DNA from: Kordiimonas sp. SCSIO 12610
GTDB taxonomy: Bacteria > Pseudomonadota > Alphaproteobacteria > Sphingomonadales > Kordiimonadaceae
Assembly (NCBI RefSeq): GCF_024398015.1
Contig: NZ_CP073747.1
Coordinates: 2,663,001 to 2,727,000 of the forward strand
Direction of reading: 5' to 3'
DNA: 64,000 nucleotides
Part shown: positions 628 through 15,813 of the stretch, in pieces
Position numbering within the stretch: the first letter of the stretch is position 1
How the letters are laid out: each line of letters begins with the position of its first letter
Program-made: the position numbers and the translations under genes
The notes under the pieces: generated by a model
Database searches by the model: none
Told to the model about the DNA's origin: nothing
Seen by the model: the letters and a program-made list of their open reading frames with translations, nothing else

Positions 628-641
628 TGCATTTAATTGCA
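628..641. repeat. Imperfect copy of the TGCAATTAATTGCA palindrome
   Basis: TGCATTTAATTGCA lies 25 bp after the integrase stop and has one mismatch to the palindrome repeated in the first 15 kb. Confidence 0.5.
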
Positions 642-726
642 AAAACATTATTATATTCAATTACTTATGAATAATTAAGCTTGACTTTCAGCTGAATATC
701 TTTATTATGATTGCCATATATATAAA

Positions 727-744
727 TGTGCAATTAATTGCACA
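727..744. repeat. 18-bp perfect palindrome TGTGCAATTAATTGCACA
   Basis: This is the longest copy of a palindrome (core TGCAATTAATTGCA) that recurs at 3048, 3383, 10021 and 15261. It lies between the integrase and the Rep-like gene. It could be an operator, or a site recognised by the element's recombinase or replication protein. Confidence 0.65.
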
Positions 745-762
745 CATGGCTACTAAAATTAG

Positions 763-1926
763 ATACAAATACTGATTGATCCATGGAGGGATCGAGCTAT
801 ACCTTTTAAAGTTATCAACAACACTTCCCCCTCTTCAATAACGACCGGGAAAAGTAATTTTTCCAAGAACGATTTTGGTATACCGAACGAGGAAATTAGC
901 TATACATACACAAGTTATGGTTTAGATGGCAACTCAAGTGAAGTATTTGTTCTAAAGCCAAAAATAGATTACCTCAGGTTCAGTGTTCCCCTAAAAAACA
1001 AATCAATAGCGCAATTCAATCAGGCTCATATAGGAAGCATTGAAACAAAGAACTTAAAAGTAAAAGTTTTTTCAAAAAAACACGCACCTAAAGGGCTAAG
1101 TGTATCTAACCAAAGATACTATAAAAACTACGAAATCTCTGGGCTTCCAGGTTATGCACTAGTTCAAATGAATCCAATGTATTCCAAGCTAAAGTTTTTC
1201 AAGATTACGATCATCCCGTCAGAATGGTCAGAACAGTTAATTGCTGAATTTTGGGAACTCATCGAAAAAATTAGCCAAGGAAACATCACCCCGCATGTAT
1301 TGGAATACGAAGCAAATCTATTGAGATTAGACTACGCGATAGATTTTATAGGCGCACCGACTCAAGACTTTTATATTAATAAGCCTAAATCAAAAACAAA
1401 GAAGAACAGTACGAAACGCAAGGGTAACATATATATCGGCAATGAAGGCAATATGGAAACCTACTATTTGGCACCTTCAACCAACAAGGAAATTAAAGAA
1501 AGATCTGCGGCGTATATATACGATAAGAAAGCCAAAAATATTTTCGACAAAAAGCCTGAAAAATGCAAAGGTGCGGATTACACACGATTTGAACTAGTTT
1601 TTGTTAGGAACAAACTAAAAAAGAAACAAATCTTTAATTTGATCAATTTCGCGCCCAACAGCGTTAACTATTTCAAACGATACGACATCATAGATTTTCG
1701 TGCCTTTAACGTGGAAAACCACGGCAAGGAATATAAACAAGAAAATTGGCTAGTATTTGGCGATGCATCCAAGTTAAGAAGAATTGAGAATGCTTTAGAG
1801 ATATTCCCATCCAGCACTCAAAAAGTATATAAGATGGGGTTGAGTTATTCACGTTTACGATCTTGGCAATTTAAAAGACTTTGGAATGACAAGTCAAAAA
1901 ACCTTAACAAAATTTTAGGTAAGTGA
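763..1926 (+). CDS. Replication-initiation-factor-like (Rep_trans-type) protein, 5' end uncertain or frameshifted
   Basis: The protein resembles plasmid/phage replication initiation factors of the Rep_trans type. Motifs in order are IDYLRFSVP, LRLDYAIDF (the RxDxAxD-like motif), GNIYIG, an AAYIYDKKAK segment matching the YDK motif, and YTRFELVF. The first in-frame ATG is at 1168, but the frame is open from 763 and the IDYLRFSVP motif lies upstream of that ATG, so 1168 is not the true start. No ATG, GTG or TTG occurs in frame between 763 and 1168. A short frame starting ATG at 746 (MATKIRYKY, stop 773-775) would join this frame after a -1 shift. The gene is therefore probably frameshifted at its 5' end, or uses a rare start. 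The family call is moderate. Confidence 0.5.
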   Translation: MQILIDPWRDRAIPFKVINNTSPSSITTGKSNFSKNDFGIPNEEISYTYTSYGLDGNSSEVFVLKPKIDYLRFSVPLKNKSIAQFNQAHIGSIETKNLKVKVFSKKHAPKGLSVSNQRYYKNYEISGLPGYALVQMNPMYSKLKFFKITIIPSEWSEQLIAEFWELIEKISQGNITPHVLEYEANLLRLDYAIDFIGAPTQDFYINKPKSKTKKNSTKRKGNIYIGNEGNMETYYLAPSTNKEIKERSAAYIYDKKAKNIFDKKPEKCKGADYTRFELVFVRNKLKKKQIFNLINFAPNSVNYFKRYDIIDFRAFNVENHGKEYKQENWLVFGDASKLRRIENALEIFPSSTQKVYKMGLSYSRLRSWQFKRLWNDKSKNLNKILGK

Positions 1927-2017
1927 AGAGTAATTTTCGAGCATATCATGGTATAGATTAATGCCAACTATAGATAAATACTACACCAAAAATTAAGGCA
2001 AATATTTAGAAGTAAAT

Positions 2018-2344
2018 TCATTGAATTGCGTCGATAACACCCAAAGTTCTCTTTAAATCCGTTTCTGTCATTTTCGAAAGCTTTTCATTTATTTGGTTTA
2101 GTAAAAGCGCTCTTTCGCTATTCACAACTGTTGCAGTATCTCCAGAAAACAGGGCTGCGGGAGGAATATCGAATACTCTACTTAACAATTCAATTGTAAC
2201 GAAAGACGGGGATGAATAGCCACGTTCTATTTTCCCCACCATATCAGTTGTCATGTTCAAACGGTCAGCAAGTTCAGCTTGCGTCATATTGTTGATTTTT
2301 CTGTATTGACGGACATTCGCCGCAACAATTGATTTAAGCTGCAT
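2018..2344 (-). CDS. XRE-family helix-turn-helix transcriptional regulator
   Basis: This is a small (108 aa) DNA-binding protein with a Cro/C1-type HTH at about residues 8-62: VRQYRKINNMTQAELADRL, then MVGKIERGYSSPSFVTIELL. The C-terminal 40 residues are a short helical tail with no recognised ligand domain. It is transcribed leftwards, divergent from a lipoprotein gene at 2504. A near-perfect inverted repeat in the shared upstream region (2422-2444) is a good candidate for its own operator. Such repressors are common on integrated elements. Confidence 0.9.
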   Translation of the reverse strand: MQLKSIVAANVRQYRKINNMTQAELADRLNMTTDMVGKIERGYSSPSFVTIELLSRVFDIPPAALFSGDTATVVNSERALLLNQINEKLSKMTETDLKRTLGVIDAIQ

Positions 2345-2421
2345 AACTGCCTCCCAGTTATGAGTAAGCTAATCAATACGAAATCAAATTATGAGGAACT
2401 TGTGTTATTGATATTTACATT

Positions 2422-2444
2422 AAACAATAATTTAATTATTGTTT
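2422..2444. promoter_or_regulatory. Palindromic operator candidate for the XRE regulator
   Basis: Two 11-bp arms, AAACAATAATT and AATTATTGTTT, are perfectly inverted around one base. The site lies 78 bp upstream of the regulator start and 60 bp upstream of the divergent lipoprotein gene, as expected for a repressor controlling both. Confidence 0.6.
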
Positions 2445-2503
2445 TATCGTTCTAAATATGGCATTGATTTAACTATACTAATCAATCAGGGGAAATAATT
2501 CAG

Positions 2504-2983
2504 ATGCGATACTCTGTTATTATTCTAATCTCTATTCTAGCCTCGGCATGTGTAACAAATTCACCATCACCATATCCAGGTCAGCCTCAGCAAGGCATAG
2601 TTTCGATCAAGAAAGTTCACTATTCAGACGCAACAGAGACAATCGAAACTGAACCAAAGCCAGACCCAGAAACTACTATCCTTCAATCGACAGATTTTGA
2701 ATTGTGCTCAAGGTACATCCGCCCCGCAACATTGAACCAAACTGCTTTTGCCGAGCTGAAACGCAGAAACCTATACCGTGAAAAATATTTCAAAATCGCG
2801 AGAAGAAGTCGCTTAGCGCTAGGCATGAACGAATGTGAAATCCTTATCGCATTTGGTAGTTCAACCCGCATCAACTCAAACACCTATCGCTGGGGCACCG
2901 TGAATTTTTATCATAGCGCTGGAAGGTTCGCCAAAACTGAGAACGGTGTTGTCGCTGCCTTCGATGATGGGTTTGTTCGCTAA
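2504..2983 (+). CDS. Small lipoprotein of unknown function
   Basis: The 159-aa product has a lipoprotein signal: a short hydrophobic stretch ending in the lipobox LASAC, so Cys16 is the likely acylated residue. A Pro-rich linker follows. The C-terminal half contains LGMNECEILIAFGSSTRIN, which resembles the short repeat of SmpA/OmlA-type lipoproteins, but the match is weak. The start has a good ribosome-binding site (AGGGGAA). The gene is 20 bp from the next one, a TonB-C protein with its own GAGGAAAG site, so the two probably form an operon opposite the XRE regulator. Function is not recognised. Confidence 0.75.
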   Translation: MRYSVIILISILASACVTNSPSPYPGQPQQGIVSIKKVHYSDATETIETEPKPDPETTILQSTDFELCSRYIRPATLNQTAFAELKRRNLYREKYFKIARRSRLALGMNECEILIAFGSSTRINSNTYRWGTVNFYHSAGRFAKTENGVVAAFDDGFVR

Positions 2984-3003
2984 GATACTCAGAGGAAAGA
3001 TAT

Positions 3004-3369
3004 ATGAACAAGTTCATCGGCATTGCAGCTAGTATATTATTATCCGCGCAATTAATTGCACAAGACAACACGCAATCAAACAATGGCGAAACCGAAGAAG
3101 AAATAATCTACTGGGAACAGCCAGTATATCCTCAACGCGCACTCAATGAAAAAGTAGAGGGATATGTGACCTATCAATTTACAGTTGGGCCAGATGGTAA
3201 AGTAACCAATGACTTGGTTTTGATCGTTACAGCAAAACCACGTGGTTACTTTGAAAGAGCCACCAGAAAAGCGATCAAGAAACTGCGTTTTAAGCCTGCA
3301 ACGAAAAATGGTCTTCCCACCACCGCTAAGGATGTCTGGTATCGCTTTGACTTTACAATACCTGAATAA
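3004..3369 (+). CDS. Periplasmic TonB C-terminal domain protein
   Basis: The 121-aa protein has an N-terminal secretion signal (first about 20 residues, ending near LIAQDN) and a TonB C-terminal domain over about residues 35-120: PVYPQRALNEKVEGYVTYQF, GPDGKV, RATRKAIKKLRFKPAT. It lacks the membrane anchor plus Pro-rich spacer of a full TonB, so it is a stand-alone domain as often seen in energy-transducer-like families. Its role and partner are unknown. The first codons overlap a copy of the GCAATTAATTGC palindrome. Confidence 0.8.
   Translation: MNKFIGIAASILLSAQLIAQDNTQSNNGETEEEIIYWEQPVYPQRALNEKVEGYVTYQFTVGPDGKVTNDLVLIVTAKPRGYFERATRKAIKKLRFKPATKNGLPTTAKDVWYRFDFTIPE
3048..3059. repeat. GCAATTAATTGC palindrome inside a coding region
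   Basis: This is a 12-bp perfect core of the repeated palindrome, followed by A as in the consensus. It sits in the signal-peptide codons of the TonB-C protein. Confidence 0.5.
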
Positions 3370-3382
3370 TTTTAGGGCAATT

Positions 3383-3396
3383 TGCAATTAACTGCA
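3383..3396. repeat. Imperfect TGCAATTAACTGCA palindrome copy
   Basis: This copy lies 13 bp after the TonB-C stop codon and has one mismatch to the TGCAATTAATTGCA consensus. Confidence 0.5.
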
Positions 3397-3446
3397 TCGA
3401 ACTTCGCTTGTTTCAACCACGCCATAATCAAACGCAGGAAAAAGAT

Positions 3447-4001
3447 ATGTCGGAATTACTCCCTTGCCCTACCTGTAATCGCTTAATATCGGAACAAGCC
3501 GAAGCATGCCCGAAGTGTGGTGAGCCCCTTCAGGAAGGTTGGATAGAAGATTACAGGAAAGCCAAGCAGAAATCACGAGGTCGATATTTTGGGGCATTTA
3601 TAATTGCGATACTGTTATTGCCAGCTCTAGCTCGACTTGGGAATAAAAAGCCAAATTACATCGCACCATCCGAAACCGTGAACGAACAGGTAGGTAAGGT
3701 ATTTCGTGCAAGCGAATATGGCGAAGGATGGCCCTTCTCTAATTATCGAAGTGTTGAAGGGAATTGTTTTTACAGAAAGTTTGGAAACACGAATAGACCA
3801 TTAGTAATCATACGAATTGGTGAAGAAAATTACGGAATGAATGGCGCTGCAATGGGGGTTGGTGGCTACCCAGATGCAAGGAAGTTTATACCCCGAGATC
3901 CAGAGTTCGGCGTTTATGATCAAAAACTTTATCCCACATATGGCAAGATATTCGAAGCAACAAAAGAACTATGCGACCCGCCGATAAATATTACAAACTA
4001 A
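3447..4001 (+). CDS. Zinc-ribbon membrane protein of unknown function
   Basis: The chosen ATG at 3447 gives MSELLPCPTC and is preceded by an AGGAAAAAG ribosome-binding site; an in-frame ATG at 3408 is less likely. The 184-aa product starts with a CPTC...CPKC zinc ribbon (about residues 7-25), then a basic linker, one membrane helix (FGAFIIAILLLPALARLG, about 49-66) and an extracytoplasmic region of about 115 residues without a recognised domain. The ribbon and single-pass architecture is known from many uncharacterised proteins. Confidence 0.75.
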   Translation: MSELLPCPTCNRLISEQAEACPKCGEPLQEGWIEDYRKAKQKSRGRYFGAFIIAILLLPALARLGNKKPNYIAPSETVNEQVGKVFRASEYGEGWPFSNYRSVEGNCFYRKFGNTNRPLVIIRIGEENYGMNGAAMGVGGYPDARKFIPRDPEFGVYDQKLYPTYGKIFEATKELCDPPINITN

Positions 4002-4520
4002 GCTATTCTTACCACTTTAATCTTTGCATGATTCACAAAGTATGTTGATATTACAATTACCTATAAATCGGCAAAAAATAATTAGTTCCTTAAATGCCAA
4101 ATCTCAAATTTCTATGACCTATTAAACGTCAGGTAATCTATCAAAGCCCACCCCAACTATATCGATTAGGAAGCGAAACGACCATCTTCAATTCGCTCAG
4201 CCTGTCCAAGGACTTCACGGCTTTCGAGTAAAGGCAGAACCGCATTGGTGCGCGCACGGGTAAATTTGCGTGCTACTCAGCGCTCAATTTGCACGTTTCA
4301 AACAATGTATAGCAGAATAACGCAATTGCGTTGGTGTTCAACAAAGTAGTAGCGAATTCCATTTCCGAGAATGAACTGAACAGCCAGATAGCTTGATTTG
4401 ACACTTTGGATGCTTCAGGTATCTCGACCTTGGTGACCTTACTGTTGTGTTATGGTTGATTTTGTGCACTTATGAGTGTTGTCTCAATGTAACTAGTTGT
4501 AGGGGAGTGAGCAGAGAAAA
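4002..4520. other. Intergenic region of 519 bp with a probable gene fragment
   Basis: No complete gene is visible. A minus-strand fragment of about 36 codons at 4166-4276 reads like real protein (listed separately). The last 60 bp form the leader of the dGTPase gene, including a GGGGAGTGAG ribosome-binding region. The rest shows no clear hairpin or repeat. Confidence 0.5.
4166..4276 (-). pseudogene. Remnant of the 3' end of an unidentified gene
   Basis: The minus strand encodes the protein-like tail RKFTRARTNAVLPLLESREV followed by LGQAERIEDGRFAS and a stop. It is cut off upstream by an in-frame TGA at 4277-4279. No start or upstream part was found. The codon pattern looks like true coding sequence, so this is probably debris from an earlier insertion. 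The parent family is not recognised. Confidence 0.3.
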
Positions 4521-5867
4521 ATGAACAAATGGGAACAGCGTCGTGACGGTTGGAAACCAGGAGAAGGAGATGCGAGAAATAGTTGGGATGTCGATTATGG
4601 ACGTATAATACATAGTGCTTCATTTAGGCGACTGCAAAGTAAGACACAAATTTTAAATCTTGGAGATGGCGACTTTTACAGAACAAGATTAACTCATTCT
4701 CTAGAGGTGGCTCAGATCGCAAGTGGGCTAACCAAACAATTAGCATTTGATAATCTCGACAACTCAGAACTTAAAGATGTTTTACCTGAGGAAAAGCTTA
4801 TACAGACAATAGCTATGACACATGACTTAGGTCACCCTCCTTTTGGTCATGGGGGTGAAATAGCCTTAAATTATTGTATGCGCGAACATGGCGGCTTTGA
4901 AGGGAATGGCCAGACGTTGCGAATACTTTCAAAGCTAGAAAAAATGTCTAAGAACGATGGGGCCAATCTTAGCCGGCGGACACTTTTAGGTGTATTGAAA
5001 TATCCCGTGCCATATTCAGCGGTTAAAAATAGACAAATACATCCTTCTATGATCAATGGAGATAAACCATTAAAATTACTAGATAAAAATTCATCTAAAC
5101 CGCCTAAATGTTATCATGATACAGAGCAGGACATAGTAAATTGGATAATGGAGCCATTATCTGAAAAGGATAGGCTACAGTTTGTAGCCTTTGATCCGGT
5201 TGTCGGTAAACATGCCAAAAGTAAACATAAGTCTTTTGATTGCAGCATTATGGACCTCGCTGACGAGATATCATACGGGGTCCATGATTTTGAAGACGCC
5301 ATAACATTGGGAATGTTAACGGAACAACATTTCCGTAAATATGTTTCAGCGGAAGATTGTGCACCATTTATTGAATTTGCAGCCAGAAGAAATTCACAAG
5401 AATTGGATAATGATCAATATGAAGGCCTTATTAAATTGCTTTTTAATAACGGTAGTAAGCGCAAAAAATACATCAATCTATTGGTGGGTTACTTTATCCA
5501 AAACGTACAATTTATTCGAATAGAAGAGTTTGCGGAGCCCCTTATACAATATAGAGCAGTGTTACGGAAAGGCGACAGAAAACTACTGGATTCTCTCATT
5601 GAGATTGTTAAACATAAAATGATTCTTAGTGCCGAGGTACAGCATCTAGAGTTTAGAGGTCAAATGATGGTTTTGAAAGTATTTGATGTTCTTACCAGTG
5701 ACCCATATTGCTATTTACCCGAAGATATTTTCGAAAAATACATTGACCAGAATAAAAACCCTAGGATTGTATGCGACTATATAGCGGGAATGACTGATAA
5801 TCATTTAGTGAAGATTTACAATAGACTCTTCAGCCCAAACGAAGGGTCTGTATTTGAGAAAATATAA
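4521..5867 (+). CDS. dgt: Deoxyguanosinetriphosphate triphosphohydrolase-like protein (dGTPase)
   Basis: This HD-domain enzyme is predicted to hydrolyse dGTP to deoxyguanosine and triphosphate. The 448-aa protein has the family N-terminus (DYGRIIHSASFRRLQSKTQI), the first metal His in RTRLTHSLEV (about H59) and the HD pair in MTHDLGHPPFGHGGE (about H101-D102). GFEGNGQTLRIL follows, the usual Dgt substrate-site segment. The length fits the family. It stands directly before a restriction-modification module. dGTPases are known to act as nucleotide-depletion antiphage factors, so a defence role is plausible, but housekeeping nucleotide control is equally compatible. Confidence 0.9.
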   Translation: MNKWEQRRDGWKPGEGDARNSWDVDYGRIIHSASFRRLQSKTQILNLGDGDFYRTRLTHSLEVAQIASGLTKQLAFDNLDNSELKDVLPEEKLIQTIAMTHDLGHPPFGHGGEIALNYCMREHGGFEGNGQTLRILSKLEKMSKNDGANLSRRTLLGVLKYPVPYSAVKNRQIHPSMINGDKPLKLLDKNSSKPPKCYHDTEQDIVNWIMEPLSEKDRLQFVAFDPVVGKHAKSKHKSFDCSIMDLADEISYGVHDFEDAITLGMLTEQHFRKYVSAEDCAPFIEFAARRNSQELDNDQYEGLIKLLFNNGSKRKKYINLLVGYFIQNVQFIRIEEFAEPLIQYRAVLRKGDRKLLDSLIEIVKHKMILSAEVQHLEFRGQMMVLKVFDVLTSDPYCYLPEDIFEKYIDQNKNPRIVCDYIAGMTDNHLVKIYNRLFSPNEGSVFEKI

Positions 5868-5875
5868 GAAGTTCA

Positions 5876-6433
5876 ATGATAAAGTTCACTATCAATGATT
5901 CCATTTATGCTGAAGTTTCTCGTAAACTTAAAACACTCCCCATATTCAAAGGCTCACATCGCAAAAATGAAACGAATTTAGTTGGCACATTAGATTAAGT
6001 TATTGTTGAAAAGTGGTTGAAGCAAAATAACGTTATGTTTCGCGACGACAGAAATAGCACCTCTCATGACTATCAATTGAATAATGGAGAAACTTTTGAG
6101 GTGAAAACTAAAGACAGAACAGTTCCCTCTCAAAAAAAATACGACTGTAATATTCCATTATACATTCATGAACATCATAAGCCGAATTATTATATTTTCG
6201 TATCTTTAGAACGTGATAAAAATAGTAATATTGAGGACCTGAAGAGATTTCATTGTGCATATATTTTAGGCAGCATTAATCAACTCAAGTTAGACAAAGT
6301 GAGAGTTGTTTAGAAAAAGTACTCAGTAGACACCCGCAATAACACTAAGTTTTGGACCGACTTTAAAAACGTTCAAATAGATCAATTATATTCAACTAAT
6401 ACTGTACTTTCTCAGTGGAAATCCATTTCATAG
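5876..6433 (+). pseudogene. Decayed copy of the PD-(D/E)XK nuclease-like gene found at 8096
   Basis: Translated through its stops, this 185-codon frame aligns along its length with the intact 187-aa protein at 8096-8659. Shared segments include KWLKQNN against NWLTKNN, the STSHDYQ/TTHDYK region, FEVKTKDRTVP against FEIKTKDRTVP, and FVSLERD against FISLERD. Two in-frame stops break it: TAA at 5996-5998, where the intact copy has GAA (Glu), and TAG at 6311-6313. The putative catalytic ExK is still present, so decay looks recent. It is probably one arm of a duplication flanking the methyltransferase. Confidence 0.8.
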
Positions 6434-6582
6434 ATACTAAATCAGAAAAAGAACACAAAGCGAACGTTTCGACAGAAATTTCCTGAAATTAAAACTTAAA
6501 TTGTGCTATACAGCGATACATTAATCCTGGATTTCCACATGAGATCATGTTATGATAATTATAATTTATACAGGTTAGTATT

Positions 6583-8043
6583 ATGGCATTAAAGTATATC
6601 GATTTATTCTCTGGATGTGGGGGATTATCATTAGGGCTTGAGCAAGCTGGTTTTGAACTTGTTTTAGCTGTTGAGAAGTCTGATATGGCCGCTGAAACTT
6701 TTTATCACAACTTCATAAAAAGATTACATGGGGAAGACGAATGGCAATCATACTGCTCAAAACCCATTGAAGATCAGGCAGTATCGAAGTTGGTAGTGAA
6801 TGAACTACGTGCAGTACTTGATAGTGATCAAATCATGACGGACCTTGTCAGCCAAGAAGTCGACCTTGTTGCTGGAGGGCCTCCTTGTCAAGGCTTCTCA
6901 ATGGCAGGCCGTCGAAATCCTGATGATATTCGAAATCAACTCCCATGGCAGTTTCTGGAAATGGTTGAACGCGTATCTCCTAAAGCTGTAATCATGGAAA
7001 ATGTTGTGGGGATGAGCCGCCGCTTTGAAAAACATGGAAAAGACAGCCCTTTTGAACAAATTCAACAAATTCTTCGCGAGACAGGAAAAGGCTATATAGT
7101 CCAACCTGTACTATTAAACGCAATGCATTTTGGCGTTCCGCAACATCGCCCAAGAATTATGATACTGGCATTAAGAGCAGACATCGCTAAACAACAAAAC
7201 ATGCAAGACTCTACAAGTGTTTGGAAGTCTGATTTCGATGACCCTGCATTAGACACAATTATGAAAAAACCTGAATTAGCGCCCGAAGGCACTCATTTTG
7301 GCGATAATATTTTAACAGTACGTGATGCTTTATGGGATATTCGATCTAAAGGATATTGGCTAAACAACACCAATGAAAATTACCAAATTCCTGAAAACTC
7401 TTATGCTGATCATATGCGTAACGACGTAAGTTGGATGCCTACGAAAATCGCTCAAGTTAACCGTAAGAACGCACTTACAAATCATAATTTACGAAATCAT
7501 GCATCACATATTCAACAAAGATTTAGAATTTATCAAATTCTCCAAAGATATGATGTGCCCGCAAAGGTAATGGGAATTCCTGTTGATATAGAATTATCGG
7601 AAGAACAAAAGCATTCGCTACTCGACGTAAAGTTATCTAGTGTATCATTTCCCTGCAAAGCGCCAGATGGTAAGCTCGTTGCGCGTTCACTAAAAGGCCT
7701 CAAAAAACATATTTTTGACTTACACACAAAGAAACACAGCCAACGCCCATTGAGAGATAACCAGCCTTCACCAACCGTTCTAAGTTTGCCCGATGATTTC
7801 GTACATCCATATGAAGCACGGACACTCACTGTGCGTGAAATGGCTCGTTTTCAGTCTTTCCCAGATACATTTGAATTTAGGGCAAAAGAAACAACAGGCG
7901 GCTTAAAACGCAGAACAGAAGTACCACAGTATACCCAAGTTGGGAATGCAGTTCCCCCTAAGATGGCTCATTCAGTAGGTATAAAGATTTCACAAATATT
8001 AACCCGCTTTAAACTACATTACAAACAGTCACACCACATATAA
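6583..8043 (+). CDS. DNA (cytosine-5-)-methyltransferase of a restriction-modification system
   Basis: This C5 cytosine methyltransferase transfers a methyl group from SAM to cytosine in a target site. Visible motifs are I (DLFSGCGGLSLGLEQAGF), IV with the catalytic Cys (GGPPCQGFSMAGRRNPDD, about C102), VI (IMENVVGM), VIII (QHRPRIMIL), IX (RPLRDNQPSPTVLSLP) and X (YTQVGNAVPPKMAHSVG). The target-recognition region lies between about residues 215 and 395. The 486-aa length is normal. It is followed 52 bp later by a nuclease-like gene and then by a convergent MvaI/BcnI-type endonuclease, so it probably protects host DNA from that enzyme. Target sequence is not deducible here. Confidence 0.95.
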   Translation: MALKYIDLFSGCGGLSLGLEQAGFELVLAVEKSDMAAETFYHNFIKRLHGEDEWQSYCSKPIEDQAVSKLVVNELRAVLDSDQIMTDLVSQEVDLVAGGPPCQGFSMAGRRNPDDIRNQLPWQFLEMVERVSPKAVIMENVVGMSRRFEKHGKDSPFEQIQQILRETGKGYIVQPVLLNAMHFGVPQHRPRIMILALRADIAKQQNMQDSTSVWKSDFDDPALDTIMKKPELAPEGTHFGDNILTVRDALWDIRSKGYWLNNTNENYQIPENSYADHMRNDVSWMPTKIAQVNRKNALTNHNLRNHASHIQQRFRIYQILQRYDVPAKVMGIPVDIELSEEQKHSLLDVKLSSVSFPCKAPDGKLVARSLKGLKKHIFDLHTKKHSQRPLRDNQPSPTVLSLPDDFVHPYEARTLTVREMARFQSFPDTFEFRAKETTGGLKRRTEVPQYTQVGNAVPPKMAHSVGIKISQILTRFKLHYKQSHHI

Positions 8044-8095
8044 TCTTAGATTTGAATTTTCATGTTAGCTGATAATTGCTGCTGGTAGATATTTT

Positions 8096-8659
8096 ATGCT
8101 AGAAATTAAAATTACGAATGAAGACCGGAAACTCGCTGCGAGACGTGCTAACAACATGCCTGAATGGCGCTTATCTATGAGAGGACATGAAGCTAATGTG
8201 GTAGGCATTCTAGGAGAAGTGATTGCCGAAAATTGGCTAACTAAAAACAATATCGTAATTTATGACGAACGCAATCTAACAACACATGATTATAAACTCG
8301 GGGACAGAAAAAACACCTTTGAAATAAAAACAAAAGACAGAACAGTCCCAATGCAAATGAGTTACGAATGCACAGTCCCGGATTACAACCACAGCCATCA
8401 AGACCCTGACTTCTATCTCTTTATCTCTCTTGAGAGAGATGCGAGCAACCCACAAAATGATATCACTCGCTTCCACACCGCTTATATAGTTGGTGCTATC
8501 AGCAGGAAAAAATTCAACGAAAAAAAGCGATCTTGGAAAATAGGAGATGAGGATCGTTCAAATAGGTGGAAACCATCAATGGATTGTTGGAATGTATACG
8601 CAAAAGACTTAGGCCCACCCAAAACTGTTATTAAGCATTGGTCCAAATTTAATCCATAA
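8096..8659 (+). CDS. PD-(D/E)XK nuclease-like protein linked to the methyltransferase
   Basis: The 187-aa protein is not a family I can name. It has an LGEVIAENWL helix, then DYKLGDRKNTFEIKTKDR, which matches the D...ExK core of PD-(D/E)XK nucleases, then strands DFYLFISLERD and AYIVGAI. It lies between the methyltransferase and the MvaI-like endonuclease and has a dead paralogue on the other side of the methyltransferase (5876-6433). It could be a second restriction or repair nuclease, or an accessory subunit. The nuclease fold is inferred from motif spacing only. Confidence 0.7.
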   Translation: MLEIKITNEDRKLAARRANNMPEWRLSMRGHEANVVGILGEVIAENWLTKNNIVIYDERNLTTHDYKLGDRKNTFEIKTKDRTVPMQMSYECTVPDYNHSHQDPDFYLFISLERDASNPQNDITRFHTAYIVGAISRKKFNEKKRSWKIGDEDRSNRWKPSMDCWNVYAKDLGPPKTVIKHWSKFNP

Positions 8660-8667
8660 TATAATTA

Positions 8668-9858
8668 TTACATTAAACTAATGACTTCAGGTTGCGGGAA
8701 CATTAGATGATGGTCTTTCTCTTGAACCCTAAATAAGTAACCATGATCTCTTGCCTTACCATTTTCCTTAAGATGCATCGTTAAATCAACCTTAAGTGTC
8801 CCATCAGCCAATCTATAGGGAACTTGTGAGATGGGAGGGTTATCAGTGAACGTAACCTTTTCATACTTGAAATAAGTCGCTCCATTCTCAACCTTCTTTT
8901 TAGCTGAAACCCATGCTGTCATTCTATGCTTAACTCTCATACGATCCATCAATTTTTGCATGTCCCAAAACAGTATTTCTGCATCAGATTCGACAGGCTT
9001 GCCAGCCCATAATATGTCACCCTCTATATCTACAGTGAGTTGCCAATTCTTTGTATTTGGCTGCTGGGAATGCATTGTAAAAGCCAAGCTCAACCGCCCA
9101 TCAGACATGTAAGCATGAGAGGATAATAAATCTACCGCATTCGATACATTGGATCGTTTCCAGTCAGGTGCCATACTTATAATTGTCTTTAATTTCGTTG
9201 TATTTCCTGATTTTGATGCATTGCCAGATTTTATTTCTATTCCTTTGTAGTCAGGCTTCTTACTTGAGTTGGCAGCAATACCTAGTAAACTCTCTAGAGT
9301 TTCCCCAACAGCTTTTGGGCCATGGCCTACAGCCTTAACAAAACCAAGTTTGGCAATGTCTTTCAATTTAAACAACAGCTCTTGCTTAATTTCATTCTGT
9401 TTTTCTTTTGTAGCCCGGATAAAATTACGAATATCGCTATCAGGGTCGATTAATCCGTCCCAAGTTTTTCTAGAACTGCAGTTAAACAGTGCAATGCCAT
9501 CATTGTATTTTATCATGGCCAATAGGTTATTATGATTTGCGATTGCCTTTAATCCATAAAACCAAATTCTAGGATCACCGTTCTTAGTTACTGGGCGATA
9601 GAGGCTGGCCATTTTGTCAACTTCATAATTACCAGAAAACATCTTTAACGGTAACAGAACTTTATTGTCAGGACCTTGCAATTGCTTGCCATAAAAGTGC
9701 AAATCAGTAATTTCTAAGAAGCTCCTAAAGCCTCTTGTCGCATCAATAATGCTTTTTTTCATTGCAGTTACAGTGGGTACAAGTAGAGCAAATTCCACGC
9801 CGAGTGAAGAAAACAAATCTACGACAGGTTTTGTATCCACATCAGATTTAGTTAGCAT
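8668..9858 (-). CDS. MvaI/BcnI-family type II restriction endonuclease
   Basis: The 396-aa protein has the MvaI/BcnI signature in its middle: GETLESLLGIAANSSKKPDY followed by KGIEIKSG, giving the D...ExK metal-binding active site. Characterised members (MvaI, BcnI) act as monomers on CCWGG or CCSGG sites. The N-terminal 190 residues are longer than in the minimal enzymes and probably help DNA recognition. It converges on the nuclease-like gene with only 8 bp between stops. The start is supported by AAAGGGA. Its upstream region carries a small inverted repeat (9925-9939) that could serve timing control. Specificity is not readable from the sequence. Confidence 0.85.
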   Translation of the reverse strand: MLTKSDVDTKPVVDLFSSLGVEFALLVPTVTAMKKSIIDATRGFRSFLEITDLHFYGKQLQGPDNKVLLPLKMFSGNYEVDKMASLYRPVTKNGDPRIWFYGLKAIANHNNLLAMIKYNDGIALFNCSSRKTWDGLIDPDSDIRNFIRATKEKQNEIKQELLFKLKDIAKLGFVKAVGHGPKAVGETLESLLGIAANSSKKPDYKGIEIKSGNASKSGNTTKLKTIISMAPDWKRSNVSNAVDLLSSHAYMSDGRLSLAFTMHSQQPNTKNWQLTVDIEGDILWAGKPVESDAEILFWDMQKLMDRMRVKHRMTAWVSAKKKVENGATYFKYEKVTFTDNPPISQVPYRLADGTLKVDLTMHLKENGKARDHGYLFRVQEKDHHLMFPQPEVISLM

Positions 9859-9924
9859 TCAGTCCCTTTCGCAAACTACTAGCAAGTCAGATTTACTGTT
9901 TTTTCGTTAGAAAACTTCCGTAAG

Positions 9925-9939
9925 AACAATTAAATTGTT
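9925..9939. promoter_or_regulatory. Inverted repeat upstream of the restriction endonuclease
   Basis: Two 7-bp arms, AACAATT and AATTGTT, flank one A, and a further TAACAATTG follows. The site is 67 bp upstream of the endonuclease start. Its arms resemble the outer part of the XRE operator at 2422 (AACAAT...ATTGTT), so the XRE protein might bind here too. Confidence 0.35.
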
Positions 9940-10020
9940 TAACAATTGATCGTATTTCTAGCAATCTAATATATTATACACGTCAATATTATATGCAGAT
10001 AGGAGAGTTGATATTATCAA

Positions 10021-10036
10021 ATGCAATTAATTGCAT
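10021..10036. repeat. 16-bp perfect palindrome ATGCAATTAATTGCAT
   Basis: This is an exact copy of the repeated TGCAATTAATTGCA palindrome, located between the defence block and the AraC-esterase block. Confidence 0.65.
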
Positions 10037-10218
10037 GGATTTATCGCTGTCCATAATAGAGTCTTATCGGAAGCTATCAGCATAACAAATTTCACCATCT
10101 TCTGGTCCGAAGTACTTCTGGAGCGATTTTAACTTCCAGAGATAACAGCTTGAGAATCGAACCAAATAAGGCAAACTAAGACGAGTTCGTTTTTAGGCTG
10201 ATCGCATCCACCGTTAAG

Positions 10219-11244
10219 TTAGGTTTTCTGTTTTTTTCTATATTCATTTGGTGAACAACCAACTGTATTATGAAACTCTCGATAGAAGTTCGATTTAGTC
10301 TCATAACCCACATTGAGCATGATGCTTAAAATATCCTCATTAGAGCTAACAAGTTGCTTCTGAGCTTCTTCAATTCTGAGGTCATTTATAAAACGCCTAA
10401 TTGTTTTATTATATTTTTGATTAATAGCGTTTGATACTAACCGTTCAGGTGCGCCTAAAGCTTCGGCAAGGCTTTTAAGGTTCGTCTCGGAATTCAAGTG
10501 AATCTGTTCTTTCATAATGAGGTTGTCTAATTTTGCGATCACTTCGCGATGGCTATCAAGCGAGTACTTAGTGTCTATGGGTGCCGCCTCATATTTGCGC
10601 TTAAATACCCATGCAACTGCATCGGCTCTGTTGAGCAAAGACCAAGCTGAGAACAAACTGACCAATGCAAAGACGAATGACACAACTACAAGACTAACGG
10701 GCGCATGGCCATCATCCAAAAAACTAATCTCAAAATAGATGAGCAAATCCATTGCAGTCAGTACAAACAAAAAGGTGAGACAAAATAATGCAAACCTTCG
10801 AATGTGCTCGGGGAGTTCGTTAAGTCTTTTTCTATTATTATATAAAAGCAGTTGTGCAGACAACAGGCTATAGGCAATCAAGCTAATCAAAATAAAAATA
10901 TCTGGTATGATTTGAGTATTCCGAGTGAAGAAAAATACCAGAGGTGAAACTAGCGCCGGTAATACATGCATATATCTTGCCTTCAACAACATCCTGCCTT
11001 TTGTCAGGTTGTACAGATAGAGGTAAATTAATGGCCCCACGCACATGGCCAGAACGCTGTTGAATATATAGGCTTCCAGATATACCTCATACAATCTCGC
11101 AGTCAGGCCAAACATCTGCATAGAAAGTACTGCAAGTAATCCGGCGAGGATGCGATTGGTATATTGGTACGCAGATGGAGCGCGATATAAAGACCCGGCA
11201 ATAATAGCTAGTAATATAGCGGACGTAAACGGGATAAATTGCAT
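10219..11244 (-). CDS. Membrane-bound AraC-family transcriptional regulator
   Basis: The 341-aa protein has an N-terminal membrane sensor of about seven hydrophobic helices (residues about 5-210) and a C-terminal AraC DNA-binding domain (about 240-340). The latter includes NLKSLAEALGAPERLVSNAI for the first HTH and EDILSIMLNVGYETKSNFYR, the conserved second HTH region, then FHNTVGCSPNEYRKKQ. Such 7TM-AraC proteins usually control neighbouring uptake or hydrolysis genes. Here a broken beta-propeller gene lies divergently upstream and a secreted esterase and amidohydrolase lie beyond. The ligand is unknown. Confidence 0.9.
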   Translation of the reverse strand: MQFIPFTSAILLAIIAGSLYRAPSAYQYTNRILAGLLAVLSMQMFGLTARLYEVYLEAYIFNSVLAMCVGPLIYLYLYNLTKGRMLLKARYMHVLPALVSPLVFFFTRNTQIIPDIFILISLIAYSLLSAQLLLYNNRKRLNELPEHIRRFALFCLTFLFVLTAMDLLIYFEISFLDDGHAPVSLVVVSFVFALVSLFSAWSLLNRADAVAWVFKRKYEAAPIDTKYSLDSHREVIAKLDNLIMKEQIHLNSETNLKSLAEALGAPERLVSNAINQKYNKTIRRFINDLRIEEAQKQLVSSNEDILSIMLNVGYETKSNFYREFHNTVGCSPNEYRKKQKT

Positions 11245-11352
11245 ATCATTTTCCTATTGTCACGAACCTCTTACAGCTTTTGCAGCCTTTTTCAAGGGTT
11301 CACAAATATGATTGTGGACGATGTTCACTTTAACATTCCTTAAAACGAACAT

Positions 11353-11850
11353 ATGAGCTTAACAATGGTGGTGCGAATGAAACAGAGCGATCAACATACT
11401 TCTAAGGTTCCGCGCGTTTATAGAATTTGCTTGGTAGTAGGCAGCACTCTCTTACTAGCTATCATGGCCATTGCCATGGCCCAAGATAAGCAGAAACATG
11501 ATAATCCTGTATACACAATGCCAGTTGGGATTACTTCTGATAGCAAGCGTGTAATTTATCAGGTGTGGCATGTATCCCCCTGACGGCAAGAAAATTGTCT
11601 TTTCTTCTGATCGAAATGGTATTGAGGGCGGTTTTGTGCTTCACGCAATGGAAACTGACTTTCTGGCCGATGTATTCCAATAATGCGGAGGATGCCAAAG
11701 AATTGGCGTTCAGCAATGCTCATTAAGAGGTTACGATAGTCAGCATTTCTTCCGATGGGAAGGTTCACACAGCATTGGAAGGCAAATCAATAGGCACCAA
11801 AGCTATGGCTTCTGCTATGACACGGGCGAGCGCTATCTTTCTGTACCGAA
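11353..11850 (+). pseudogene. Frameshifted PD40/TolB-like beta-propeller gene remnant
   Basis: The frame opens with a membrane or signal helix (ICLVVGSTLLLAIMAIAMAQ) and runs to HVSP, where TGA at 11581 ends it. Skipping one C of the C5 run at 11576-11580 continues it as SPDGKKIVFSSDRNG, a textbook PD40/WD40-like repeat of TolB-type propellers. A second stop (TAA, 11681) and another frame change follow: SNNAEDAKELAFSNAH, then VTIVSISSDGKVHTALEGKS. Full-length members are several hundred residues, so the gene is broken and truncated by its convergent neighbour. The real start may be ATG 11377. Confidence 0.65.
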
Positions 11851-11868
11851 CTTTTGCCTGGGTAAAGT

Positions 11869-12810
11869 TCATTCCCATTTTAGCGGACTGGACGATGGTT
11901 TTCGGTCCGTTTCACCAGCATATACACCTACGATACCACGCATGAAAGCGGAGGGAAAAACTCCTTCATGTTGCTCACCCGACAAAACTTCCAGATTTAT
12001 CTTTAGTCTATCATTCCGGCGCTTGCGCAAGTTGTTTGCCAGCACATACAGATCGGTCACCAGATCAAGACGTTCTTCTGCTTCACCAACCGCAAAATAG
12101 ACGCGTGTTTCACCCGAGTACTCAGTCTCTTTTGTGGCGCGCGCGGCTTTCATCACCCAGCGTTCTTCGCGAGGCAAAAGCCAGTCATCCCACCAAATAG
12201 CCGGACTGATGATCACATATCGGTTAAATAACCCTGGCTTATTCAACAGTGCATAAGTTGCCCCAAGACCGCTGGTGGATTTGCCAATCAGAACCCGGTC
12301 CATTTTATGGACATCGAAGTTTGCTTCCATGAACGGAATGATTTCTTTTTCCACCACATCAAAGAAAGCCGGAGCGCCGCCGGAGCCAACCCAGTCCTTT
12401 CGGCTCTTTTCTAAAAAATGACCCGCAGGAGGTTTAAATTTGGTTGGCGTATAATCACGGGTACGGTTCTCTTCTTTCCAGAAATCGCCTTCTTCGTTTT
12501 TGTATCCAATACCAACAAAATAAGCAGATGGAATGTAATTGAAGATTTCATAGTTATAAGACATTGCCGCAGCTGGCGTCATGTTGGCCAAAGCATCCAG
12601 AAAATAGAATGTTGACGATTTCTCGCCGTCGGCGGGTGGTCTGAGAGGGGCTCGGATTATCAGTTGATAGTCCACCCCGTTGGCTGCGGTAGGAAGGTCA
12701 TATACCTTCATGTCATATGGGTAGGTAAATGGTTTGGCCTCTGGTTCACTAGCCCACAGGCCGTTCAAACCAACAACTACATAAAGCATCGCGTAAAGTA
12801 GATTTCTCAT
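11869..12810 (-). CDS. Secreted esterase-D-family alpha/beta hydrolase
   Basis: The start at 12810 is chosen because GAGGGATA precedes it and the product then begins with a signal peptide (MRNLLYAMLYVVVGLNGLWA); an in-frame ATG at 12873 would overlap the upstream gene. The 313-aa protein is a putative esterase (PF00756 type). The nucleophile Ser is in GKSTSGLGATYAL, a variant of the usual GHSLGG elbow, and the likely catalytic His is in GEQHEGVFPSAF. It is predicted to work in the periplasm on an unknown ester. It lies downstream of an ABM-domain protein and an amidohydrolase on the same strand. Confidence 0.8.
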   Translation of the reverse strand: MRNLLYAMLYVVVGLNGLWASEPEAKPFTYPYDMKVYDLPTAANGVDYQLIIRAPLRPPADGEKSSTFYFLDALANMTPAAAMSYNYEIFNYIPSAYFVGIGYKNEEGDFWKEENRTRDYTPTKFKPPAGHFLEKSRKDWVGSGGAPAFFDVVEKEIIPFMEANFDVHKMDRVLIGKSTSGLGATYALLNKPGLFNRYVIISPAIWWDDWLLPREERWVMKAARATKETEYSGETRVYFAVGEAEERLDLVTDLYVLANNLRKRRNDRLKINLEVLSGEQHEGVFPSAFMRGIVGVYAGETDRKPSSSPLKWE

Positions 12811-12857
12811 TATCCCTCGCTTGGATTGATTTTTATTATGCCAATACAATGGCGATG

Positions 12858-13193
12858 TTAGTTCTGTTTCCAACTCTTTTGTAAATTGAAATGGTTGAAT
12901 ATATCCACGGTTTCAAAAGAAGCCAGGTAAGCACTAAATTCCGGCCTTTTCTGGTAAATCTTGACCCTACGTGCCGCTTTTTCTGCAAGCTCCAGAGTTT
13001 CCCATTTTACAATATCCATAAATACATTTGGTTCACCCATACACTTGTAAAATTCATAGCTAATACATCCTTCAAAACTCATCACAAACTCACGAAATTC
13101 TTCGATTGAGGTATTTACATATGTTGCCTGCATACTTTGTTTTATCTTGTAGACGACAAGTTCTACTATGGGCGTTTCTGGCAAATTGCTCAT
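12858..13193 (-). CDS. Antibiotic biosynthesis monooxygenase (ABM) domain protein
   Basis: The 111-aa cytoplasmic protein has the ferredoxin-like alpha/beta-barrel pattern of ABM-domain proteins: ELVVYKIKQ, EEFREFVMSFEGCISYEFY, FMDIVKWETLELAEKAARR and the helix before FETVDIFNHF. Members are small homodimers, some cofactor-free oxygenases and others haem-degrading or stress proteins. It is 47 bp upstream of the esterase and 20 bp downstream of the amidohydrolase, so the three are probably co-transcribed. The substrate is unknown. Confidence 0.75.
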   Translation of the reverse strand: MSNLPETPIVELVVYKIKQSMQATYVNTSIEEFREFVMSFEGCISYEFYKCMGEPNVFMDIVKWETLELAEKAARRVKIYQKRPEFSAYLASFETVDIFNHFNLQKSWKQN

Positions 13194-13213
13194 ATTACAC
13201 TTTCTTTTTTAAA

Positions 13214-14767
13214 CTAATGCACTGCTTGTTTGGAGGTATCATCCTTAAGAGCACTAAAATTATTCCTGTCATGAGCAACACCGCCTAAAACAACCCACTC
13301 GATATTATCGTATGCTTCAATAGTTTCCCATGGGTTTTGGGTAAGCAGCAACAAGTTTGCCTGCTTACCTTCTTCAATAGTTCCCAAACGATCTTGTATG
13401 CCAAATGCTCTGGCGTTTTCTTGTGTTGCCGCTGCAAATATTGATTTGAGAGAAATACCGCTCTGTTCCCAGTTTTGCATTTCTACATAGCTACTAAACC
13501 CCGCTAGCGAGCCCCATCCAAAACCACCAGATGAAGTATCTGTTCCAAATAAAAAGCGAACTTTCTTGGAATTCATATCGCCAACAATCCGCCCGTATCT
13601 AGTAAACATCTTTTCCATTGCTAAACTGACATTTTTTTTGCCTCCACCTGTAACGATTTTCTCCCCAAAGAGTCTCAGGAAAATATCTTTTTGACGTTGA
13701 CCATCTGTTTTTAGGTAAGAAATGAAATCAGTCGGCAAAGCATGTTTTAGGCCCTTTCGTTCCAGTAAACCAAAATCAAACATGGAAATCGTATGACGGA
13801 GTGCACCGAAAGTTGGCTGAACTTTAATACCTGACTTTGCCACCTCTAATATAGAAGTAGTTACGTTTTCAGGTACATCCGGCAGGCTATAATTGTTGTT
13901 TCGCCAATCCCACAAGCCATGCGCCATAATATCCACCCCCACATTTGCACCAAAAGAATATGCCGCCGGTGATGTGCCATGTAAAATTACGGGTAGATTG
14001 TGTGCATGAGCTTCAGATACTAATTCCTGCATAATTTGGACACTTGGCAAACTAAATTTGCGTTCTTGTTCGGGCATCCACAGGGCTTCTTCATAATAAA
14101 TCTTCAAGCACTTTGCCCCTGCCTTCAGGCGGTTTTTAACGACAGCTTTTGGGCTATGATCTGCAGCATCAACACCATTCGGTAGATACCCATCGTTGAA
14201 CCGGTCATGAAGAAAATTTGGTGCATAGCTTAATAGAGATTTCTTCGGGAACTCCATTGCCATAAATCCGTCACTCAAAATGACGCCTTTACCGCAATGT
14301 ATCAATTCAGGGTGTATCGGCGTTGACAAAAATCGTTTATTGGATTGAACGTCAGCGTTTGTTTCAACAATGGTTGTATAACCATAATATAGGTAACTGC
14401 GAGGCATTTGATCCAAATACTGATTATATAAGGCGTCATAGTTAGATGTATAATGACGCTTTAGGCCGGGCGCATGATAAAGGTGTACGTGACTATCAAT
14501 CAGCCCGGGAGTTAGGTATTTTCCTGTGCCATCAATTTCTTTTTTTGCATGCCACTTGATAGGTTCTCTGCTGACTCTGACAATTTTGTCCCCCTTTATC
14601 GCAATATGAACATTTTTAAGCGGGAGGTCGCGTTCAGGGGAAATCAGGATGACATTTTTTATCAGCAAATCATATGACGTATCATCCGCTTTGCTCGGTA
14701 TTGCAAGAAAGTTTAAGGTTAAAAGAGCAAAGCCAATTTTCAAAATCTGCAGCATAGTTTTCGCCAT
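13214..14767 (-). CDS. Secreted metal-dependent amidohydrolase
   Basis: This 517-aa amidohydrolase-superfamily enzyme, of the imidazolonepropionase/prolidase-like group, has an N-terminal signal peptide (about residues 1-27). Metal-site features are the HxH motif in GLIDSHVHLYH, a probable carboxylated Lys in KCLKIYYEEA, His in LPVILHGTSP, and the final Asp in LFGTDTSSGG. The C-terminal strand-rich part (IEEGKQANLLLLTQNPWETI) closes the usual beta-sandwich. It is the first gene of a probable amidohydrolase-ABM-esterase operon. Substrate unknown; homologues cleave amides, cyclic amides or dipeptides. Confidence 0.85.
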   Translation of the reverse strand: MAKTMLQILKIGFALLTLNFLAIPSKADDTSYDLLIKNVILISPERDLPLKNVHIAIKGDKIVRVSREPIKWHAKKEIDGTGKYLTPGLIDSHVHLYHAPGLKRHYTSNYDALYNQYLDQMPRSYLYYGYTTIVETNADVQSNKRFLSTPIHPELIHCGKGVILSDGFMAMEFPKKSLLSYAPNFLHDRFNDGYLPNGVDAADHSPKAVVKNRLKAGAKCLKIYYEEALWMPEQERKFSLPSVQIMQELVSEAHAHNLPVILHGTSPAAYSFGANVGVDIMAHGLWDWRNNNYSLPDVPENVTTSILEVAKSGIKVQPTFGALRHTISMFDFGLLERKGLKHALPTDFISYLKTDGQRQKDIFLRLFGEKIVTGGGKKNVSLAMEKMFTRYGRIVGDMNSKKVRFLFGTDTSSGGFGWGSLAGFSSYVEMQNWEQSGISLKSIFAAATQENARAFGIQDRLGTIEEGKQANLLLLTQNPWETIEAYDNIEWVVLGGVAHDRNNFSALKDDTSKQAVH

Positions 14768-15002
14768 CTCACGTCTCTCTCTTATCAGGTGATTCTGATT
14801 ACCTTTTGAGATTTACTGGGTAACCGGCTTGAATGTCGTCCACAATCACGTTTGTGAACCAACAAAATGCGCTATTTCAAAATCTGTGAATAAGTGTCCG
14901 CAAGTCCATGGGCATTTCACTAGGTATTGTCACGTGTAGACGAGTCTTGATTTACAAAAATCTGGTTTATAATTGATTGTGGGATACAGTGATGGGGGGG
15001 GA

Positions 15003-15165
15003 TTGGTAAAGCAAATAGATGTTGATCAAGTGTATCCACTACCCTATCTTCATCAGATGCATAAAAATCCATTTCGTTATTTTAAAACATCTCGAAAAGT
15101 GATCCATCTCGCAGTATTGATGAACATTCGTTTCCCGCTTTCTTTGCAAGAGTTCGAAGACTAGT
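15003..15165 (+). mobile_element. IS6-family transposase remnant, N-terminal part (relic A, left)
   Basis: The sequence encodes KNPFRYFKTSRKVIHLAVL and IRFPLSLQEFED, matching the start of an IS6/IS26-type transposase and closely matching the copy at 55126. It stops within the first 45 residues, and the catalytic middle is absent. It is preceded by a G8 run (14994-15001). It forms the left part of a decayed insertion whose C-terminal part lies at 15480-15813. Confidence 0.8.
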
Positions 15166-15404
15166 TTTGTAATGTTAAAATATACCCGGACGGGTTATAG
15201 AACATTGTAGAGAAATCAACCTATTCAGAATTATCCTCAGTAGCATTATCTTTAATTCGATGCAATTAATTGCACGCTTTCTCTTTGCACTAAATTTACA
15301 CTATATTATACTCTATAAATCGATACTTGAATGAACCATGGATGGGAATATTCAATTAATAAAATGACTTAGAATTTTAGTAACGGAGAAGACTTTAATC
15401 CCTT
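15166..15404. other. Spacer between two IS6 relic parts
   Basis: This AT-rich stretch has no reading frame. It contains the TGCAATTAATTGCA palindrome at 15261 and ends in a tRNA-Ser-3'-end-like sequence (15394-15415). Confidence 0.45.
15261..15274. repeat. TGCAATTAATTGCA palindrome, rightmost copy
   Basis: This is a perfect 14-bp palindrome identical to the core at 727 and 10021. No further copy was noticed to the right of this position. Confidence 0.6.
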
Positions 15405-15415
15405 CGTCTCCGCCA
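15394..15415 (+). other. tRNA-Ser 3'-end-like sequence, possible attachment site
   Basis: AATCCCTTCGTCTCCGCCA (15397-15415) reads like the T-arm end, acceptor stem and CCA of a bacterial serine tRNA (typical 3' end CGTCTCCGCCA). No tRNA body precedes it. Such fragments are left as direct repeats when an element integrates into a tRNA gene, and a tyrosine recombinase lies at the far left. The partner tRNA is outside the window, so this remains tentative. Confidence 0.35.
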
Positions 15416-15813
15416 CTATCTGGCTAACCACTTATTTTCTATACATTTTATTTTGCGACCTTAGTTGGATTTCCCATCTTACACTAAGATGGCAAAAATC
15501 TATTGCACTGACACCTCAACAACAGATGTGTTTGCGACGCAAACGTTTACGTCAAAATTCACACCTTTCCTTCCGACGACAAGAACGAGCCAAGCTCCGG
15601 TTCAGGCGAATGCGAAGCTTACATAAATTCGCCTCGATGCATGCCTCACTATATAATCACTTTAATGGAGAACGACACCTAAGTAACCGAGACATTTTCA
15701 AAAAATACTGATCCGCAGCTCTTTCGACATGGCGTCAGCTTGCGGAAATTACGGCATAAAATCTCACCAGAAAAGTGACATTTGAGACTAGTTAGCATTA
15801 AACTGACAGCACC
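15405..15813 (+). mobile_element. IS6-family relic A, right part (shared spacer plus transposase C-terminus)
   Basis: After about 90 bp of non-transposase sequence, which is also present in relic B, the region encodes the IS6 transposase C-terminus: NSHLSFRRQERAKLRF, RRMRSLHKFASMHASL, YNHFNGERHL, then degenerate codons for SAALSTWRQLAEIT. It ends with ATTAAACTGACAGCACCC, the right terminal sequence shared by the other copies. The element ends a few bases from the stop of the DASS transporter gene. It cannot make an active transposase. Confidence 0.8.

Follow-up and report, generated by a model that had tools for sequence, protein, structure and literature searches.

Genes and palindromes of a tRNA-borne island

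The window analyzed here, a 64-kb stretch (C1:2663001-2727000) of the 3.50-Mb single-contig genome of Kordiimonas sp. SCSIO 12610, opens with the right part of a genomic island that carries a recurrent 14-bp palindrome, the subject of this report. Window coordinates are genome coordinates minus 2663000. The island (C1:2650808-2678514, 27.7 kb) lies in tRNA-Ser(GCT), is bounded by identical 118-bp repeats, begins upstream of the window, and ends at window position 15514. The left repeat, attL, is found at the 3' end region of the tRNA gene (C1:2650808-2650925, left of the window) and the right repeat, attR, at 15397-15514 (forward strand). With the recombinase gene int1 beside the tRNA gene and the tRNA end directly repeated at its two borders, the element is a tRNA-borne integrative genomic island.

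Read from the left, tRNA-Ser(GCT) is followed by int1 (580 aa, left of the window, with a DUF6538-like N-terminus and SAM-like and integrase domains), which has one palindrome in its coding sequence at C1:2652128, then by palindromes at -10259 and -9926 and a gene for an RTX-repeat protein. A TonB-receptor/FecR/FecI block, a palindrome at -1283, a small cysteine-rich gene, and a gene for a DUF488 protein lead to int2, a tyrosine recombinase of 323 aa (1-602, forward strand) whose start, at C1:2662631, lies 369 bp to the left of the window and whose catalytic motifs, judged by eye, appear intact. The window continues with palindromes at 628 and 729, an open frame for a Rep-like protein (763-1926, forward strand; no Pfam match), an XRE (HTH_3) regulator (2018-2344, reverse strand), a lipoprotein gene, a TonB-C gene containing the palindrome at 3047, the palindrome at 3383, and a zinc-ribbon gene. 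Next come a dGTPase gene and, as further cargo, a C5 cytosine DNA methyltransferase (6583-8043, forward strand) and an MvaI/BcnI-family restriction endonuclease (8668-9858, reverse strand). The palindrome at 10022, AraC, esterase, ABM, and amidohydrolase genes, and the palindrome at 15261 complete the island up to attR.

The palindrome is a dyad of the form TGCAA-N4-TTGCA, here TGCAATTAATTGCA; sites were counted at no more than one mismatch unless stated otherwise, and genome-wide statistics are based on pattern searches. Three of the six copies in the window carry one mismatch: TGCATTTAATTGCA at 628-641, between int2 and the Rep-like frame; CGCAATTAATTGCA at 3047-3060, within the TonB-C gene and with a perfect 12-bp core at 3048-3059; and TGCAATTAACTGCA at 3383-3396, between the TonB-C and zinc-ribbon genes. 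The remaining three contain the exact 14-mer. One forms a perfect 18-bp dyad, TGTGCAATTAATTGCACA, at 727-744 (14-mer at 729), just 5' of the Rep-like frame and 20 bp after a promoter-like TTGACT-N16-TATTAT; another forms a 16-bp dyad at 10021-10036 (14-mer at 10022), between the endonuclease and AraC genes; the last, at 15261-15274, is 123 bp in from the island's right end. Shuffling yielded 0.83 matches at two or fewer mismatches compared with the six observed, and none of 100 shuffles reached six.

The palindrome is an element-specific signal in this genome. An earlier note on the window had reported six copies in the first 15.3 kb and none from there to 64 kb; this was confirmed, and the signal proved stronger than claimed, as the whole genome contains 10 sites, all in C1:2652128-2678274. 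Uniform spread over the genome or equal density in its core, which the note had named as grounds for dropping the idea, was not found, all 10 sites lying inside the 27.7-kb island (probability under uniform spread ~1e-21). Four of the 10 lie left of the window, the farthest 10.9 kb away, and only the right-hand portion of the cluster therefore falls in the window. A search with the reversed pattern gave no match genome-wide. The placement of copies at boundaries between gene blocks, also proposed in the note, is borne out for eight of the 10, which are intergenic although 78% of the island is coding, and fails for the two inside the int1 and TonB-C genes. Three sites are embedded in repeats, two of 227 bp (81% identical) and a shorter third copy; the flanks of the others are unrelated, so that outside those repeats the 14 bp are conserved by themselves. 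In the literature searched, neither the 14-mer nor its main variants turned up, and the 12-bp core did so in a single paper, on Salmonella secretion systems.

The dyad in related islands and in a siphophage family

Elsewhere in the bacteria sampled the dyad is rare. The exact 14-mer is present in four of 385 genomes of the class, as a single copy in three of these, and TGCAATYRATTGCA occurs at most twice in every one of 397 genomes of the phylum save Kordiimonas sp. SCSIO 12610. A scan of 298 genomes of the order (one mismatch or fewer), a partial sample of it, revealed a few further clusters. We fetched eight regions around sites in order-mates (L321-L328; gene starts from simple open reading frame calls), of which seven contain an int1- or int2-like gene and the eighth, L321, has Rep-like and XRE genes; a tRNA gene, Ser(GGA), Leu(CAG), or Glu(TTC), is present in six. 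L322 encodes relatives of both recombinases (int1, 43% identity over the C-terminal part; int2, 58%) as well as a DUF488 gene, L323 and L324 encode int2 relatives (45 and 49% identity), and L325, L326, L327, and L328 encode int1 relatives (26, 37, 36, and 24% identity, respectively). L328, from genome G842, was included because of a single exact site; the remaining near-sites in G842 are scattered.

Most of the further clusters in the order are on islands at tRNA genes that encode relatives of the Kordiimonas integrases, Rep-like protein, or XRE regulator. The sites of these regions are associated with mobility genes. They immediately precede and follow int1 in L327, follow it in L325 and L328, fall within the first 140 bp of int2 in L323 and L324, and lie upstream of Rep in L321, L323, and L324 and of XRE in L321 and L325. 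The Rep-like frame of the Kordiimonas island is 30% identical over 335 aa to that of L321, which also has sites at its start. Several islands carry defense-type genes, namely OLD-like ATPases in L322 and L325 and restriction-modification and dGTPase genes in Kordiimonas. Among 32 loci around sites in other genomes, an int1-, int2-, Rep-, or XRE-type gene was found only in L318 and L320, duplicates of L321 and L328, and the remaining loci are best seen as chance matches. Relatives of int2 elsewhere (80 loci, ~30-48% identity) do not carry the palindrome in any instance, and no close int1 relative was found in the genome and viral collections.

The palindromes in int1 (C1:2652128) and in the int2 gene of L322 (L322:1704) occupy the same protein position, just past the catalytic-arginine box, and are read in different frames (V-Q-L-T-A-H and V-A-I-N-C-K). 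The N-terminal part of int2 in L323 and L324, before the recognized domains, repeats A-I-N-C-T, the peptide reading of the palindrome (L323:10392-10447, L324:11142-11209), and the DNA sites therefore seem to have been retained within the gene. Other repeated palindromes, TTGCCACGTGGCAA and TTGCACGCGTGCAA, were seen at int2-relative loci on Novosphingobium and Sphingopyxis contigs (L110:2330-2512, L111:5434-6853, L112:1495-2882) and were set aside, those of L111 belonging to plasmid replication and parA/parB-like regions.

The dyad is also iterated in bacteriophages. Viral contigs were scanned with the exact 14-mer and recounted at one mismatch or fewer in six, which hold 48, 36, 35, 27, 18, and 9 sites in 91.8, 71.6, 71.8, 50.4, 33.5, and 18.2 kb, with a median site spacing of 1.3-2.4 kb in each and a G+C content of 57-59%; phage gene coordinates are as deposited. 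The site-rich contigs, many IMG/VR contigs included, represent one siphophage family. The large terminase of G472, one of these contigs, shares ~48-53% identity with its counterparts in Rhodobacter phage RcZahn, in the Stenotrophomonas phages DLP3, DLP5, and Summit, and in the Rhizobium phages RHph_TM16 and Y1_11; DLP5 and Summit are temperate members of this family. TGCAA-N4-TTGCA occurs 31 times in DLP5, nine times in RcZahn (100 kb), and 16 times in TM16 (100 kb), compared with 0-1 for six control dyads, and in the parts of TM16 and Y1_11 covered it ranks top among 5-mer dyads. The first 50 kb of a Vibrio relative, VHS1, contain none, and a control variant, TGCACTTAAGTGCA, is found in 33 viral contigs, never twice per stretch, and is not iterated.

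With 9-48 copies per phage contig and 10 in the 27.7 kb of the island, the dyad is iterated over single elements of both kinds. Its arms are largely invariant and its spacers variable (TTAA, TCAA, CATA, CAAA, and others), some arm variants differing by a single base, for example TGAAATTAATTGCA; both the island and the G47x phages have the perfect palindrome. DLP5 has the TCAA/TTGA spacer in both orientations though almost all of its genes point in a single direction. In the dyad-bearing phages, profiles of int1 and int2 gave no matches, and a role of the dyad as integrase attachment sites or Rep iterons is therefore disfavored as the general one. The suggestion of the earlier note that the copies are operators of an island regulator, or sites for the integrase or Rep-like protein, thus holds insofar as the signal accompanies this integrase/Rep/XRE family in order-mates, and needs revision in that a phage family carries it as well. 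Searches of viral contigs with the Rep-like and zinc-ribbon proteins gave no matches in the contigs searched for them. A zinc ribbon, the single island protein to match a phage contig (45% over 64 aa), was rejected as a link between islands and phages, being absent from other phages and of a kind that we take to be a common bacterial domain.

Site properties and possible functions

Like those of the island, the phage sites favor gene boundaries. In the first 50 kb, five of 17 sites in DLP5 and four of eight in RcZahn are intergenic (0.7 and 0.2 expected), so that phages and island alike display the boundary enrichment of stoperator-type sites. All 17 DLP5 sites in that stretch are unchanged in Summit (238 of 238 bp vs. 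90.3% in the flanks), for which the chance is ~3e-8 given the rate for random 14-mers. In six phages, the start of the prohead protease gene is preceded by a dyad at a distance of no more than ~110 bp; this upstream region is near-identical between DLP5 and Summit and alike in the two Rhizobium phages, and differs in the others. In the combined set, a -10-like hexamer is found 0-4 bp before 18 sites vs. 4.6 expected, by an approximate -10 matrix uncorrected for local A+T content, and in L325 a TATAAT, one base, and then TGCAAGTACTTGCA stand ahead of the XRE gene. Close pairs of sites are spaced at 23, 40, 44, and 119 bp, some of them upstream of genes. A hairpin or RNA-structure reading was rejected because the phage flanks have no complementarity past the 14 bp.

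We lean toward the view that the dyads are operators or stoperator-like roadblock sites for a predicted dimeric DNA-binding protein, situated at the mobility genes of islands and the gene boundaries of phages. Restricted to one island in this genome and scattered through phage genomes, the 14-bp word is a probable docking site of a control protein common to unrelated mobile elements. Each TGCAA-N4-TTGCA would be a double-stranded binding site for one dimer; the subset of dyads set against promoters would act as ordinary operators, and the remainder, at gene boundaries or within genes, as stoperator-like roadblocks to transcription. Occupancy of the island dyads, which lie beside int1, int2, and the Rep-like frame as well as ahead of cargo blocks, would silence the element for as long as the protein stays bound. 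Siphophages of the DLP5/RcZahn type use the same site language genome-wide.

Several known systems resemble this arrangement in part. The L5-type stoperators of Cluster A mycobacteriophages are likewise short sites scattered over temperate phage genomes with a comparable distribution, but they are asymmetric, point along the direction of transcription, and have a known repressor, which binds as a monomer (PMC9283540, PMC4351075). Because the dyad described here is symmetric, it conforms incompletely to the definition of a stoperator. The SPBRE sites of prophage SPbeta are also a repeated intergenic element of a temperate element, and the repressor that binds them, MrpR, adopts the tyrosine-recombinase fold of the family that includes int1 and int2; however, they comprise a 15-bp motif of other sequence, and MrpR has lost catalytic residues (PMC10516654), whereas the catalytic motifs of int2 seem intact. 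Closest in appearance are the 17-bp dyads (TGTTCGG-N3-CCGAACA) of Cluster O mycobacteriophages such as Corndog, present in >30 copies per phage and ascribed no function (PMC4351075). They share with the present dyads the many copies, invariant arms, variable A+T-rich center, lack of meaning in orientation, location of about one-third of copies inside genes, and want of a named binder, and these phages also encode proteins with ParB-like domains; they differ in sequence and in their mycobacterial hosts, the phages are not obviously temperate, and the dyads are unreported on genomic islands (PMC4351075). Iterated dyads of this sort have thus been described previously in one mycobacteriophage cluster, and a comparable signal is now found in Stenotrophomonas, Rhodobacter, and Rhizobium phages and, letter for letter, on bacterial islands whose gene content barely overlaps with theirs. 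If one protein does read both, islands and phages would be wired into one regulatory circuit. Binder and function are open to direct testing since named phages exist, including the laboratory phage DLP5.

Four points weigh against operators or roadblocks. A symmetric site cannot encode direction, as known stoperators do. The conservation between DLP5 and Summit comes from one pair at 90% identity, in which random 14-mers are also unchanged in 36% of cases. Promoter overlap, besides the approximate matrix and the uncorrected local A+T content, is limited to a small fraction of sites. Finally, no protein common to all site-bearing phages and islands was detectable, and consequently no binder is named; a comparison of gene content between motif-bearing phages and VHS1 likewise gave no clear binder.

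The identity of the letters in elements with almost no shared genes would also be explained by a phage factor acting in trans. Under such operator mimicry, which is possible but doubtful, the binder of DLP5/RcZahn-like phages would control the islands, and these would display the phage's site at integrase, replication, and perhaps defense genes in the manner of a satellite or infection sensor. The sites near mobility genes in related islands are consistent with this, as is an MgsA_C-like gene common to three islands and four phages, all palindrome carriers (L323:10521-11588, L324:10013-11068, L326:2308-3414, and gp141 of RcZahn among them). This gene is absent from the Kordiimonas island, however, and no such phage was seen to be resident in the Kordiimonas genome or in other island carriers (10 or fewer sites per genome). 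Nor was a packaging or capsid-redirecting gene recognized with Pfam, PHROGs, or PADLOC in the part of the island proteins that was scanned, although such genes can be novel.

Each element might alternatively have its own binder, on islands the XRE regulator (2018-2344 and relatives), repressing Rep, the integrases, and itself. An XRE gene is present in three site-bearing regions, and its relatives in L321 and L325 retain the recognition-helix region V-G-[KR]-[IM]-E-R and have a dyad upstream, one of which directly follows TATAAT; nearby Rep-like genes carry sites in both the Kordiimonas island and L321. We nevertheless think this unlikely, as the XRE promoter of the Kordiimonas island itself has no site, most other site-bearing regions are without a relative (none in the fetched parts of L322, L323, L324, L326, L327, and L328), and similarity to a phage protein is only generic (E 0.003).

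A ParB-type protein using the dyads as centromere-like or nucleoid-organizing sites appears improbable. A ParB_N protein does adjoin the terminase genes of four named phages that carry the dyad and went undetected in the dyad-free VHS1, and DLP5 was recovered from a lysogen in the form of a phagemid (PMC7326821). Against this, no ParB was seen on the island, the phage ParB_N proteins have no HTH recognizable in Pfam, and matches were weak in G471 and G476 and insignificant in G472 despite the many sites there.

Least probable, and only marginally credible, is the insertion or exchange of cargo cassettes at the palindromes by int1 or int2: palindromes do flank gene blocks and adjoin integrase genes in related islands, but they also lie inside genes, including int1 and the int2 of L322, occur by the tens in phages without detectable int1/int2 relatives, are missing from the 80 int2 relatives elsewhere, and at 14 bp are short for the two-monomer core site of a tyrosine recombinase. 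Membership in an integron or cassette array was rejected on the same placement of sites within the int1, TonB-C, and L322 int2 genes and in those phages.

Further features of the island

The attR repeat (15397-15514) takes in the beginning (25-50 bp) of the int1 coding region, perhaps left over from an earlier element that had inserted in tandem at this tRNA. A gene for a 187-aa protein is partly duplicated (6017-6313 and 8096-8659), the two copies flanking the C5 methyltransferase gene near that of the MvaI/BcnI-type endonuclease. Left of the window, the small cysteine-rich gene is zinc-finger-like and has one in-frame TAA (L012:1842-2098, C1:2661842-2662098); it had weak plasmid matches only and was found nowhere else in 377 genomes of the class. 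Truncated remnants of its start are present in two more repeats, near C1:2652741 and 2653074.

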